Assembly (NCBI GenBank): GCA_008081045.1
Contig: VMDC01000001.1
Span: 124,001 to 188,000 of the forward strand
Direction: 5' to 3'
Origin: Gammaproteobacteria bacterium
Lineage (GTDB): Bacteria; Pseudomonadota; Gammaproteobacteria; Pseudomonadales; Pseudohongiellaceae
Length of the DNA stretch: 64,000 nucleotides
In this document: one piece after another, positions 44,664 to 49,508 of the stretch
Layout of the letters: every line of letters starts with the position of its first letter
Numbering within the stretch: the stretch's first letter is position 1
The notes under the pieces: generated by a model
Database searches by the model: none
Told to the model about the DNA's origin: nothing
Seen by the model: only the letters and a program-made list of their open reading frames with translations
Translations under genes and position numbers: made by a program

Positions 44664-46097
44664 TCAGATGGCCAACCAGAGCACGACAAACATCAGCGCC
44701 GTAGCAACCTGACTCGGACGGTCTGACACTGCCAGCAGAACCGGGTCTTCATTCAGTGTGCCCTTTCGCGCTAACCACCAGGCTCTGAACAGGATCCCAC
44801 CCAGCAGCCCGGCAATCGGCCAGAGCCATTCCGGGGAGCGGTATAAAGCCCGGGTCTCATCTGCATAGATGTAAAAAATAAATATCAGCACGGAACAGGC
44901 GCAGGCGAAAAGGCCCTGCGCGGTGAGCGCGGTCAGATCGCCCCGGCTATAGGCCCGCCCCGGCAGTACTGCGGCATGGGTTGATTTGCTTAATTCGACA
45001 ACGCGCTTCAGTGCAGCCAGTCCGAAGAACAGAGTCATCGAAAACCCTAACAACCAAATCGAAGCATTGACCTGTGCTGCTTCCGCTCCGGCCTCGAGTC
45101 GCAGGGAATACAAGCTTGCCAGCGTGAGCAAGTCCAGGAAAAAAAGGCGTTTCAGCAGCAAACTGTAGAGTACGGTGAGCGTCCAGTACCCTAAAAGAAT
45201 GACCATGAATTCTCTGGGCTGCAGATGAGCAAGTGCAAACGCGGCCAGGAGCAGAACGATGGCTGCCACCATGCCGGTCTGAATCGGCAGGGTGCCCGCA
45301 GCCAGCGGTCTCGTTTTTTTTGTGCTGTGCAAGCGATCAGACTTCAGATCCAGCAGATCGTTGCTGAGATACACACTCGATGCCACCAGACAAAAACAGA
45401 CAAAGCCGATAACAGTGTGCAGCAGGCGGTGTGCGTCAGTAATCTGATGCGCCAGCGTGAGCGGAATAAACAACAACCCATTCTTCGCCCACTGATGTGG
45501 CCGCATGGCCTGCCACAAATAGCGGACCCGAGAGCCTGGCGGGTCAAAATCTCTGCTTGGCTTGGTGTCACAGAGGTCGCGGGCGAGTGAACTGCTGCAG
45601 TTTACGCGAATGACTTCGGCTGCAGCTTCCCAGACAGGGATATCAGCCTTTGAATTGCCGGCATAGCTGAACGGTTTGCCACGGGTAATTTCCTCGATAC
45701 GCTGGCGTTTGGCCGTGGCTTTCAGATTGATCTGCTCATCGCTGCCAACACAGGTTTCGAACAACTGAAGGGGTTCGGCGAATTTCTGAAGCGCTCGTTC
45801 ATTGGCAGCTGAAATCAGAACCAGCTGGCGCCCGTTTCGCTTTTCGCCGTTCAGGAAATCCAGAAACTCTTCATTGAAAGGCCAACCGCGGAAACTGAGG
45901 TCAACCCGTTCAGCCAGTCGTGCTTTCAGAGTCGCTTTACCTTTCAAAAGCCAGATGATCATGAGTACCAGATTGAGCGGGTTTCGCTTGAGCAGCACAC
46001 AAACCGACTCAAACATCAGATCGGTTTTGATCAGGGTGCCGTCCAGATCGACAAACAGAGGCAGGGCCTCGCGGTCTGTTGAAGTGAGTTCAGTCAA
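44664..46097 (-). CDS. HAD phosphatase-UbiA prenyltransferase fusion (polyprenyl-phosphate phosphoribosyltransferase-like)
   Basis: A 477-residue membrane fusion. Residues about 1-195 are a HAD phosphatase with the nucleophile FVDLDGTLIKTD and the ISAANE motif; residues about 195-477 are a UbiA prenyltransferase of eight or so helices with NDLLDLKSDRLHSTKKTRPLAAG, the aspartate-rich site. This is the layout of enzymes related to mycobacterial Rv3806c (decaprenyl-phosphate 5-phosphoribosyltransferase), with an attached phosphatase that could remove the 5-phosphate. Last gene of the GtrA-DprE1-DprE2-like operon, 3 bases after the DprE2-like gene. Inferred product: polyprenyl-phosphoryl ribose. 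Confidence 0.85.
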   Translation of the reverse strand: MTELTSTDREALPLFVDLDGTLIKTDLMFESVCVLLKRNPLNLVLMIIWLLKGKATLKARLAERVDLSFRGWPFNEEFLDFLNGEKRNGRQLVLISAANERALQKFAEPLQLFETCVGSDEQINLKATAKRQRIEEITRGKPFSYAGNSKADIPVWEAAAEVIRVNCSSSLARDLCDTKPSRDFDPPGSRVRYLWQAMRPHQWAKNGLLFIPLTLAHQITDAHRLLHTVIGFVCFCLVASSVYLSNDLLDLKSDRLHSTKKTRPLAAGTLPIQTGMVAAIVLLLAAFALAHLQPREFMVILLGYWTLTVLYSLLLKRLFFLDLLTLASLYSLRLEAGAEAAQVNASIWLLGFSMTLFFGLAALKRVVELSKSTHAAVLPGRAYSRGDLTALTAQGLFACACSVLIFIFYIYADETRALYRSPEWLWPIAGLLGGILFRAWWLARKGTLNEDPVLLAVSDRPSQVATALMFVVLWLAI

Positions 46098-46100
46098 GGC

Positions 46101-46841
46101 CTAGAACTTGAGCCGCTTGAAGACGGCCTCCGGTATTGATCGCACAACAGCCATGATCAGTCGCCAGTAGCCGGGAACGTAGACAGTGTGTCGTTTGCGC
46201 CTGATAGCCTTTTCGATCTGTCTGGCAACAAGTTCAGGGGAAGACCAGAGAAGGCCTTTGTCAAACTGCTGCGTCATCGGTGAATCTACCAGTCCGGGTC
46301 GGATGTCCAGTACGTCGACGCCGTAGGGTAGGAGCTTCCCCCGTAGACCCTGAAGGTAGGTTGAGACCAAGGCCTTGGCTGCACCGTAAACAAAATTGGG
46401 CTGCCTGCCACGGTCGCCAGCGACTGAGGTGACCACCGCCAGCATCCCACGACCTTGCGCTTTCAAGTAAGGTGTCAGCCGGGTAAGCAAAGAAATGACG
46501 CTCAAGCCATTGATGTCAATTTCACGCCGGGCAAGATCAAAATCCTGCTCTGCCGCCTCCTGATCCGGAAGCGAACCGTGACAGATCAGGACGAGGTCGA
46601 TGTCTTCCTCATCAAAGAATTCAGTCGCGGCATTAATCGCGGTTTCATATTCTTCATGATTCAACAGATCCAGCACACGGGTCCCGACCCGCGCTGCGCC
46701 TCGAACCAGGAGATCCTGCTGCTGCAGCGCCAATCGCGAGCCATTTCGTGCAATCAGAAACAGACTGCTGTGCTGTGCCGCATAGCGCCTGGCAACTGCA
46801 GTCGCGATTGCAGAACCAGCACCGATCAGAAGAATGTTCAT
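46101..46841 (-). CDS. dprE2: DprE2-like short-chain dehydrogenase
   Basis: A 246-residue SDR with the NAD(P) site LLIGAGSAIATAVARRY, the catalytic Tyr-Lys in NFVYGAAKALVSTYLQGLR and the tail GYWRLIMAVVRSIPEAVFKRLKF, which matches the mycobacterial DprE2 C-terminus closely. DprE2 reduces the 2-keto intermediate (decaprenyl-phosphoryl-2-keto-erythro-pentose) to decaprenyl-phosphoryl arabinose. It overlaps the DprE1-like stop by 4 bases (ATGA), so the two redox partners are coupled. Confidence 0.88.
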   Translation of the reverse strand: MNILLIGAGSAIATAVARRYAAQHSSLFLIARNGSRLALQQQDLLVRGAARVGTRVLDLLNHEEYETAINAATEFFDEEDIDLVLICHGSLPDQEAAEQDFDLARREIDINGLSVISLLTRLTPYLKAQGRGMLAVVTSVAGDRGRQPNFVYGAAKALVSTYLQGLRGKLLPYGVDVLDIRPGLVDSPMTQQFDKGLLWSSPELVARQIEKAIRRKRHTVYVPGYWRLIMAVVRSIPEAVFKRLKF

Positions 46842-48193
46842 CGCTGAGATGACCTCATGGCGGCTTGAGTGAGTCCAAGCCGATCCGACTGCAGTGAACC
46901 CAGTGTCCCTGCCGGATCAATCCGGTCTTTAAGGGCTTTGAATTGGTGCCAGTTGGGGTAACCCTGTCTGAATACTGCAGCACTCATGCGCGCATCTTTC
47001 GCCAGATAATGTCGTCCGCCCGCAGCCAGAACGATCTCGTCCAGTCGGTCCAGCAGCGGCAGCAGATCGGGCTCATATTTGAAATCAAGGGTCAGTGTGA
47101 CGCCCTCGCTGGGGAAGCTCAACCAGTTGGCATTGGCAGGCCCGAATCGCTTGAGCACGGCAAGAAAGGAGCCTTTTCCGGACCGACTTACGGTCTCCAG
47201 CGTTTCTCGCAGACCCGACTCTGCGGCGTCGTCTGGCAGAACGAACTGATACTGCAGAAACCCTTCAGACCCATAAAGCCGATTCCACCCTTTCAGACTG
47301 TCCAGTGGAAAGAAATAGTCGTCGTAGTAAACCGAGTTCACTGACTTTTTGAATCTGTGGCGGGCGTAGTACAGCTGGTTAAAGCCACCCATCGTGTAGC
47401 GATTGAGCAGAAACCCCGGCGTCGTAAAGGGCACAGAGAGCTTGCGCTTTGATCTGTGCTCCAGCTTTCCTGTCTCACTGTGACTGCCAAGGTGAATGAC
47501 CCCCCTGCCCAGCGCCGACGCTTTTGCCAGACAGTCCACCCACGCGACGACATACTGTTCGTCATTATGCTGTCGCAGCAGAGCCAGACTCTCCTCGAGA
47601 TTGGCCGCAGGAATTGACTGGGCGCTGATGAAGGCACTCGGCACCTTTTTCAAAGAGATGGTTGCATCCAGAATCATCCCGGTCAGTCCCATACCGCCGC
47701 AGGTGGCCTGAAAGTACTCTTTATTCTCGGTGGGAGAGCAGACTGCGGTCTCACCGCTGGGCAGAAGCAGGGTGAAACGTTCAATGTGATCACAGAAACT
47801 GCCATCGACGTGATGATTTTTGCCGTGAATGTCGGCCGCGATCGCACCACCTATGGTGACCGTCTTTGTGCCCGACAGCACCGGCAGGAACAGGCCCTGT
47901 GGCACACAGACACGCAGTATCTCGGCCAGGGTGGTGCCGGCGCCGCAGCGAATGGTCAGAGCACGCCGGTCAAGGCTGATAAAGTCGTCCAGATACCGGC
48001 TGCTTAACACCCTGGCTGCCAGGGCGCTGTCTCCGTAGCTGCGCCCCGCGCCCCGCGGGATCATTCGCGGTCCCTCGCCGTTCTTTAGAATTTGCGCTGT
48101 GGAGTCAGCATCTCTGGGCGCAAGCACGGACGCTTCTACGTAAGGATACCGACCCCAGCCCGAAAGACGCATTCTGCTATTGACCCCCGTCAT
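46838..48193 (-). CDS. dprE1: DprE1-like FAD-dependent oxidoreductase
   Basis: About 451 residues from the ATG at 48193; 48172 and the track start at 48247 are also in frame and the longer ones overlap gtrA. It matches DprE1 along its length: LSGWGRYPYVE, RGAGRSYGDSA, SGTKTVTIGGAIAADIHGKNHH (FAD-linkage region), the WNRLYGSEGFLQYQFVLP block and the active-site lysine YLAKDARM. It oxidises the 2-hydroxyl of polyprenyl-phosphoryl ribose. At the position of mycobacterial Cys387 it has Thr (GVTLTLDF versus GWNICVDF). Confidence 0.9.
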   Translation of the reverse strand: MTGVNSRMRLSGWGRYPYVEASVLAPRDADSTAQILKNGEGPRMIPRGAGRSYGDSALAARVLSSRYLDDFISLDRRALTIRCGAGTTLAEILRVCVPQGLFLPVLSGTKTVTIGGAIAADIHGKNHHVDGSFCDHIERFTLLLPSGETAVCSPTENKEYFQATCGGMGLTGMILDATISLKKVPSAFISAQSIPAANLEESLALLRQHNDEQYVVAWVDCLAKASALGRGVIHLGSHSETGKLEHRSKRKLSVPFTTPGFLLNRYTMGGFNQLYYARHRFKKSVNSVYYDDYFFPLDSLKGWNRLYGSEGFLQYQFVLPDDAAESGLRETLETVSRSGKGSFLAVLKRFGPANANWLSFPSEGVTLTLDFKYEPDLLPLLDRLDEIVLAAGGRHYLAKDARMSAAVFRQGYPNWHQFKALKDRIDPAGTLGSLQSDRLGLTQAAMRSSQR

Positions 48194-48638
48194 TCTGATT
48201 TTGACCGAATTGGCCATGGGCTGGATTGTTGCCGGCTGTTGAGACAAAAACCATCCGGCTGTCGAGTTGATACTTTACAACATATCCGATGGCCAGTCCG
48301 ATTGCAGCGCCGGAATAGCGCGCGGACTTGCCGCCAAACAAGAATTCGCAGCCCAGTTCGAAACTCCAGAATAAAACGGTAGTAAGTACTCCGGTCACAG
48401 CATAGGCGATGAATGTTCTGAGGTTGTGTCGCTGCGAACGGGTGACGAAGGCGAAGATGAATTTCTTGTCCAGGCAGTATTTACTGATCAGGCCTGTCAT
48501 TGTGCCAATCAGGAGGGCGACGTAGAGCGTGTAGCTACCCGCATAGATTCTGATCGTCAACTCCTGAGACGCCAGGTTGATTAGGGTGGCAATTATGGCG
48601 AAAACCCCATACTTTAGTGCCCGGTCGGCGGCAGTCAT
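48177..48638 (-). CDS. GtrA-family small membrane protein
   Basis: A 153-residue protein with four transmembrane helices (YGVFAIIATLINLASQEL; LYVALLIGTMTGLISKYCLDKKFIF; FIAYAVTGVLTTVLFW; YSGAAIGLAIGYVVKYQLDS) and the GtrA hallmark K(F/W)xF region. GtrA proteins help move or place polyprenyl-linked sugars at the membrane; in mycobacteria the counterpart Rv3789 sits beside dprE1/dprE2. First gene of the operon, overlapping the DprE1-like gene start. Divergent from the inositol-monophosphatase gene with 75 bases between starts. Confidence 0.88.
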   Translation of the reverse strand: MTAADRALKYGVFAIIATLINLASQELTIRIYAGSYTLYVALLIGTMTGLISKYCLDKKFIFAFVTRSQRHNLRTFIAYAVTGVLTTVLFWSFELGCEFLFGGKSARYSGAAIGLAIGYVVKYQLDSRMVFVSTAGNNPAHGQFGQNQNDGGQ

Positions 48639-48713
48639 ATCGAAGTTCTCGTCGGCTTAAATAGATCTCGCTGCGGCTGATGCCCAGCTACTGAGTCGGA
48701 ATAGGAAGCGGCA

Positions 48714-49508
48714 ATGACAGAGCTCATGAATTTTGCACAAAGCGTAGCGCGTGAAGCCGGTGAGCTGATTTTGTGCGAGCGCGAGCAGGCTGACCTTGTT
48801 CACGATTATAAAGGAGGAAATGAGCTGGTGACTAATGCCGACATCAAGGCAGACCAGCTAATCCGAACCCGGATTGAGCAGCGCTTCGCGGAACACCGGC
48901 TCCTGTCTGAAGAGTCTTCTCCTGAGTTGCAGCGGGTCTGGGAGTCTGAGGTGCCGGTTTGGATTGTTGACCCGATCGACGGCACCGTGAACTACGCCCA
49001 CGGCCACATTCAATCGGCCGTCTCCATTGCTTACTGCGAGCACGGACAAATAACCCTTGGCGTCGTCTACAACCCCTTCACCGACGAGCTTTTCAGCGCC
49101 GAATTGGGGCAGGGCGCGAAGCTGAACGGAGCGACGATCAGAGTGGCTGAGGAGACAAATTTGCGCAGAGCCATCATTGCCACAGGGTTTCCGTACATCA
49201 AAGAAGGAATTGACGACATGGTGGAGCGGGTCAGAAGTATTCTTCATCATTGTGCCGACATTCGGCGACTGGGCTCCGCTGCACTCGATATATGCTGGCT
49301 GGCGGCCGGTCGTCTTGACGGTTATTACGAAAGCCTCAGCCTGTGGGATTTCGCAGCGGCCAGACTGATAGCCGCGGAGGCTGGCGCCGTGTGTGGCCAT
49401 TTCGGTGCGGTGCCGGAAGATGTGGACCCCCAATTCTTTAATAAGAACCTCCTGATCGCGAATCCGGCCCTGTACCCCCAGCTGTTGGAGCTGCTGCAGC
49501 AATCCTGA
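48714..49508 (+). CDS. Inositol monophosphatase-family enzyme
   Basis: A 264-residue Mg2+-dependent phosphatase with the Li+-sensitive family motifs: the acid pair in LLSEESS, WIVDPIDGTVNYAHG, and the C-terminal WDFAAARLIAAEAGAVCG. Members hydrolyse myo-inositol monophosphate, fructose bisphosphate or 3'-phosphoadenosine phosphates; SuhB-like is the nearest class by size. Its place next to the arabinose-donor operon may mean it acts on a phosphosugar of that pathway, but this is only a guess. Confidence 0.88.
   Translation: MTELMNFAQSVAREAGELILCEREQADLVHDYKGGNELVTNADIKADQLIRTRIEQRFAEHRLLSEESSPELQRVWESEVPVWIVDPIDGTVNYAHGHIQSAVSIAYCEHGQITLGVVYNPFTDELFSAELGQGAKLNGATIRVAEETNLRRAIIATGFPYIKEGIDDMVERVRSILHHCADIRRLGSAALDICWLAAGRLDGYYESLSLWDFAAARLIAAEAGAVCGHFGAVPEDVDPQFFNKNLLIANPALYPQLLELLQQS

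Follow-up and report, generated by a model that had tools for sequence, protein, structure and literature searches.

Does a marine gammaproteobacterium possess the pathway that supplies D-arabinofuranose (D-Araf), which is usually regarded as a mycobacterial sugar and whose synthesis is a drug target? This question is raised by a four-gene operon in a member of the Pseudohongiellaceae (assembly GCA_008081045.1, contig VMDC01000001.1). We analysed a stretch of 64,000 nucleotides (contig positions 124,001 to 188,000), hereafter the window, in which the operon occupies positions 44664-48638 on the minus strand and encodes, in this order, a GtrA-family membrane protein, a DprE1-like oxidase, a DprE2-like reductase and a fusion of a HAD and a UbiA domain. 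The operon very probably constitutes the donor pathway for polyprenyl-phosphoryl-beta-D-arabinofuranose. An earlier note had described these genes as a complete, mycobacterial-type module. As shown below, 'complete' is accurate for donor synthesis and flipping but not for the transferase, which would be encoded elsewhere, and 'mycobacterial-type' is accurate for UbiA, DprE1 and DprE2 but not for the 5'-phosphatase, which here is a HAD domain joined to UbiA, the arrangement also seen in Citrobacter ORF15 (PMC11127046).

The four open reading frames (ORFs) given in that note were recovered by their coordinates and profile matches, all on the minus strand, as were the motifs IHGKNHH and NFVYGAAKA and the UbiA Asp motif. 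The genes overlap or almost touch, as in a single transcript, with a 4-bp overlap between DprE1 and DprE2 and a 3-bp gap between DprE2 and HAD-UbiA. A Pfam-type scan of the encoded proteins returned UbiA and HAD, adh_short, FAD_binding_4 and ALO, and GtrA, and the NCBIfam entry NF005489 was matched above its cut-off (277 bits). The profile matches of all four ORFs are far beyond chance. Furthermore, the closest solved structures in a PDB search were DprE1, DprE2 and Rv3806c of Mycobacterium tuberculosis, and in each case proteins of other functional classes followed at a clear distance.

The HAD-UbiA protein matched NF006088 above the cut-off (532.5 bits), and its top solved relative was Rv3806c (E 2.5e-21). 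Eleven Rv3806c residues are kept in the alignment: R22, K28, N73, D77, D81, K87, R90, Y138, K143, Y157 and K191. With the exception of D81, which is kept in addition, these residues were assigned in the Rv3806c structure to the binding of the pyrophosphate of phosphoribosyl pyrophosphate (PRPP), of Mg or of the lipid phosphate (PMC10994848). The residues for PRPP, Mg and lipid phosphate that mark the UbiA-type PPPRS of a three-component pentofuranose system are thus in place, and so is the 5'-phosphatase domain with its catalytic DxD. The HAD domain matched PF12710 above the cut-off and carries the motif DLDGT. In a set of 51 fusions, every one in which the motif could be placed has DxDGT, and an alignment of 20 sequences shows no variation at either Asp. 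The fusion was also modelled with AlphaFold2 from 20 sequences (pLDDT 87.6, pTM 0.83); this model retrieved donor-bound Rv3806c (8j8j, E 3.7e-11) as the top Foldseek hit, while its N-terminal part retrieved HADs of the phosphoserine-phosphatase (SerB) type. The predicted structure therefore matches an Rv3806c fold plus a SerB-type phosphatase fold.

The DprE1-like protein matched NF053785 with 404.7 bits (E 6e-121). The earlier note had named grouping with unrelated sugar oxidases as a result that would speak against its reading; instead, the PDB search gave 275.8 bits to DprE1 (E 5e-81) and 60.5 bits to xylitol oxidase. In M. tuberculosis numbering, Y60, H132, K134, Q334, Q336, K367, Y415 and K418 are kept in the PDB alignment, and the features of the wider DprE1-like family, FAD_binding_4 with the C-terminal domain and H132, K134, Q336 and K418, are all present. 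The roles of the compared residues in M. tuberculosis are established. N385 and C387 are replaced by Thr (residues 384 and 386 of the window protein) and Y314 by Phe. C387 is the benzothiazinone target in M. tuberculosis; because of the two Thr residues, covalent benzothiazinone binding by this protein is not expected. The DprE1 ORF as listed starts at a TTG within GtrA; translation more probably begins at an ATG, either that at 48217 or one further downstream. For the DprE2-like protein, M. tuberculosis DprE2 was the top solved match (E 1e-26; next short-chain dehydrogenase/reductase (SDR) 1.5e-12), and N119, S147, Y160 and K164, including the S-Y-K residues, are kept in the PDB alignment. 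In these alignments, nearly every substrate or catalytic residue checked across DprE1, DprE2, UbiA and HAD is kept. The GtrA protein matched NF037976 with 154.8 bits, exceeding the curated cut-off of 50 bits, and is the only PF04138 match in the genome. It is proposed as the flippase of polyprenyl-phosphoryl-arabinose.

The match between the four genes and the pathway steps, as put forward in the earlier note, is supported by these data. The reactions would take place in the cytoplasmic membrane, where the UbiA domain would transfer 5-phosphoribose from PRPP to a lipid phosphate, probably undecaprenyl phosphate, giving polyprenyl-phosphoryl-ribofuranose-5-phosphate, from which the fused HAD domain would strip the 5-phosphate. 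DprE1 would then oxidise C2 of the ribosyl lipid to a 2-keto intermediate, and DprE2 would reduce it to the arabinosyl lipid, changing the ribo to the arabino configuration. GtrA may flip this lipid to the periplasm, where a GT-C enzyme encoded elsewhere would move D-Araf onto a surface glycan or protein.

Several points weigh against the donor pathway. Both Dpr proteins score below the NCBI equivalog cut-offs (404.7 against 500 bits for DprE1 in NF053785; 180.4 against 250 bits for DprE2 in NF053786). Because of these scores we label them homologues rather than equivalogs: the oxidase is classed by its profile score as a DprE1-family homologue and not as an NCBI-called decaprenyl equivalog, and the reductase is filed as a DprE2-like homologue only. 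The support comes from gene content, homology, kept residues, synteny and distribution, from which we infer the chemistry, the identity of the lipid, the role of GtrA as flippase and the transferase. In addition, the genome assembly (2.75 Mb, 62 contigs) is a draft of 96% completeness, so that absences are provisional.

Which protein would use the donor? In agreement with the earlier note, which had seen no arabinosyltransferase in the window, we found no GT-C transferase there. The genome-wide search suggested in that note, covering the GT-C families PMT_2 and GT87, yielded one candidate, a 641-aa protein on contig C6 (G000:C6:16317-18239) that is the single PMT_2 match; its N-terminal part is of the GT-C type and is followed by a C-terminal tail. 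Neither GT87 nor the Wzy_C ligase had a match in the genome. The glycosyltransferase-2 proteins of the genome lack GtrB/ArnC-type C-terminal membrane helices, and no polyprenyl-phosphate-sugar synthase equivalog was matched. Since no GtrB/ArnC-type donor synthase was recognised, the operon is, as far as can be seen, the sole source of lipid-monophosphate sugar for the PMT_2 protein and GtrA. Of the family's seven other genera, four have both DprE1 and a C6-type GT-C, and the remaining three have neither (Fisher p 0.029). The candidate resembles Citrobacter ORF12 (GT136) only in its layout, a GT-C with a C-terminal tail (641 versus 652 aa), and in an acidic DE pair close to the N-terminus. A PDB search with the candidate gave only spurious matches to G-protein-coupled receptors.

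Some observations argue against assigning this role to the C6 protein. Its gene is unlinked to the operon, the PMT_2 family handles many different sugars, and C6-type GT-Cs are present in genomes G036, G047, G078 and G117, in which DprE1 was not found, G117 also being without HAD-UbiA. The transferase might instead be another GT-C, from an unrecognised family or lost in assembly gaps. GT-C enzymes diverge strongly, the genome is incomplete, PMT_2 and GT87 were the only GT-C families searched genome-wide, and in genome G086 of the same family a 592-aa multi-transmembrane protein without a Pfam match, absent from the genome studied here, adjoins DprE1. On the other hand, the C6 protein is the sole PMT_2 match and GT87 gave none, and in two Campylobacterota operons (L070, L072) a PMT_2 GT-C gene immediately follows DprE2, the C6 candidate being 21% identical to the L072 protein over 462 columns. 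We rate this alternative, which concerns the transferase only, at somewhat less than an even chance, and lean slightly towards the C6 PMT_2 protein as the best candidate D-Araf transferase.

In G086, the genes after DprE1 (L046:10393-14483) encode the 592-aa protein, an NAD-dependent epimerase-like protein and a PRK07233 FAD oxidoreductase. The 592-aa protein is a candidate for another GT-C type; tried as a transferase marker, it was rejected, being absent from the genome studied here and from its genus. Two other genomes of the order that also carry DprE1 contain tail-less homologues of the C6 candidate paired with a PAP2 phosphatase gene (L195:9108-11730 and L196:3997-6595). A small glycan cluster on contig C4 (L174:13216-18284, G000:C4) encodes a rhamnosyltransferase that scores close to the cut-off and a multi-domain glycosyltransferase of 1066 aa; it is a possible source of an acceptor glycan.

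We compared the operon with three known systems. With the mycobacterial decaprenyl-phosphoryl-arabinose (DPA) pathway (Rv3806c, Rv3807c, DprE1, DprE2, Rv3789) it has in common the predicted chemistry and homologous UbiA, DprE1 and DprE2 proteins with kept active-site residues. It differs in its phosphatase, a HAD domain fused to UbiA, whereas Rv3807c is separate and unrelated to HAD-family phosphatases, in the lack of an adjoining transferase gene, in the Thr at DprE1 C387 and in the lipid, presumably C55. The Citrobacter youngae O1/O2 three-component systems likewise have a HAD-UbiA fusion for polyprenyl-phosphoryl-ribofuranose; their epimerase step(s), flippase and periplasmic GT-C (PMC11127046) have predicted counterparts here. 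Their flippase is of the MATE type, while the proposed one here is GtrA; the candidate GT-C lies outside the operon, and the operon is near-universal in a genus instead of being a serotype locus and does not lie in an O-antigen locus. The pilin arabinosylation system of Pseudomonas paraeruginosa PA7/Pa5196 (PSPA7_6245-6251, TfpW; PMC12369383) is also a D-Araf pathway of the Pseudomonadales with a UbiA-type synthase and a transferase elsewhere in the genome. There, however, the genes are carried on a genomic island, the acceptor is pilin, and the UbiA is without the HAD domain (PMC11127046). Among the Gram-negative precedents listed in the earlier note, the pilin is apt, but O-antigen systems belong in that list too. 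The literature on Pseudohongiella lipopolysaccharide offered nothing useful.

The Citrobacter work also bears on the identity of the sugar. Kelly et al. 2024 showed that C. youngae ORF15, a HAD-UbiA protein, makes lipid-phosphoryl-ribofuranose from PRPP (PMC11127046). In Citrobacter, HAD-UbiA alone leads to ribofuranose and a different SDR leads to xylofuranose (PMC11127046), so a working lipid pathway could end in a sugar other than D-Araf, with ribofuranose passing through or another epimer or modified pentose being formed; the sub-cut-off scores of DprE1 and DprE2 would fit this. We consider it improbable, since both members of the DprE pair are present with their catalytic residues kept, and since loci with arabinofuranose-containing glycans carry DprE1/DprE2 homologues, which follow arabinofuranose and not xylofuranose in loci of known structure (PMC11127046). 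More improbable still is that the genes form a degenerate or unrelated cluster of oxidoreductases and a prenyltransferase without an arabinose role: the UbiA, SDR and FAD_binding_4 families are large and functionally diverse, but the order, tight packing and synteny are kept across the genus, the best solved match of each enzyme is by a wide margin a DPA enzyme, and the basic residues with which Rv3806c binds PRPP (PMC10994848) are kept.

Within its genus, which is close to Pseudohongiella, the predicted D-Araf donor operon occurs almost universally and with conserved synteny. DprE1 is present in 74 of 83 same-genus genomes, many of them incomplete. When the operon was mapped in relatives, as the earlier note had proposed, most of the genus members inspected had the same layout, an IMPase gene diverging from GtrA-DprE1-DprE2-HAD-UbiA, usually with an S-formylglutathione hydrolase next; the automated neighbourhood scan did not detect GtrA in some members (e.g. 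L033, L034, L036). An uncultured Pseudohongiella (L067) shares the downstream genes. Beyond the genus, DprE1 homologues were found in 70 of 398 sampled Pseudomonadota genomes (~18%) and in at least 586 confirmed stretches across many phyla of the genome collection, the best 80 of which belong to Pseudomonadota, Bacteroidota, Acidobacteriota, Myxococcota, Planctomycetota, Campylobacterota, Chloroflexota, Actinomycetota and others. The rarity of D-Araf in Gram-negatives had thus been overstated. In a 60-row tree, the window DprE1 groups with its own genus and with G087 of the same family, whereas several other Pseudomonadales and the same-family G086 fall in a separate deep clade. We therefore reject simple vertical inheritance across the whole order; given this split, more than one entry of the trait into the order is probable. 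As a separate observation, genome G036 carries a HAD-UbiA gene in an unrelated context without DprE1 (L191, G036:C217:1-12000), which could represent another lineage, contamination or a ribose-only system.

Of 123 DprE1 neighbourhoods, 90 contain DprE2 and 83 contain UbiA, which is fused to HAD in 56 cases. GtrA is near DprE1 in 28 and a PF03706-type membrane protein (LPG_synthase_TM, flippase-like) in 10; the two never occur together (chance of zero overlap 0.07, although the loci are not independent). PF03706-type genes lie beside UbiA/DprE genes without GtrA at L044:5878-6873, L045:10890-11858, L047:11028-11981, L079:12309-13259 and L194:8356-9345, with family membership checked for the first four, and their hosts are Gammaproteobacteria and one Bacillaceae metagenome-assembled genome. 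As a lead, not a result, a PF03706 protein is a possible alternative flippase of polyprenyl-phosphoryl-pentofuranose.

The features of the locus are collected in the table. A promoter and terminator scan, including the divergent intergenic region, gave no match above chance. The flanking IMPase is the third paralogue in the genome, which has two others, one of them adjoining an RNA methyltransferase-like gene. As this is the usual context of suhB, we rejected the flanking gene as the housekeeping SuhB. Among the 123 neighbourhoods, an IMPase lies beside the operon in 24 loci, only in this family. At E<=1e-40 it is missing in nine family members where DprE1 was not found, which a gap spanning the whole locus in these draft genomes explains equally well. 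From this linkage we infer that the IMPase may work with the operon.

Table. Features of the predicted arabinosyl donor locus (window positions)
Feature	Position	Strand	Basis
GtrA-family membrane protein, proposed flippase of polyprenyl-phosphoryl-arabinose	48177..48638	-	PF04138 30.9 bits, NF037976 154.8 bits
DprE1-like FAD oxidase, predicted polyprenyl-phosphoryl-ribose 2'-oxidase	46838..48247	-	NF053785 404.7 bits, PDB DprE1 E 5e-81
DprE2-like SDR reductase, predicted 2'-keto-erythro-pentofuranosyl lipid reductase	46101..46841	-	PDB DprE2 E 1e-26, NF053786 180.4 bits
HAD (5'-phosphoribose phosphatase)-UbiA (polyprenyl-phosphate phosphoribosyltransferase) fusion, predicted	44664..46097	-	NF006088 532.5 bits, Rv3806c relative
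IMPase-family phosphatase, divergently transcribed neighbour	48714..49508	+	PF00459 204 bits
75-bp divergent intergenic region, presumed operon promoter region	48639..48713	no strand	gene layout

Pathways of this kind had been described in Gram-negatives before and prove to be widespread; new here are its near-universal conservation in a genus and the transferase and flippase leads. A broader proposal, which we hold to be rather unlikely as a whole, is that arabinosylation of a core envelope component belongs to the housekeeping functions of marine bacteria of the Pseudohongiellaceae type without a Wzy_C-type ligase match, involving a new tailed PMT_2-type D-arabinofuranosyltransferase, a family-specific IMPase accessory and, in other lineages, PF03706 proteins that replace GtrA as flippase. 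The kept gene pairings give testable leads: the unlinked GT-C candidate, a second possible family of flippases and a DprE1 in which Thr naturally takes the place of the cysteine targeted by benzothiazinones. Together, the syntenic, genus-wide pathway in marine gammaproteobacteria and the occurrence of DprE1 homologues in about 18% of sampled Pseudomonadota suggest that D-Araf is commoner in Gram-negative envelopes than reported.

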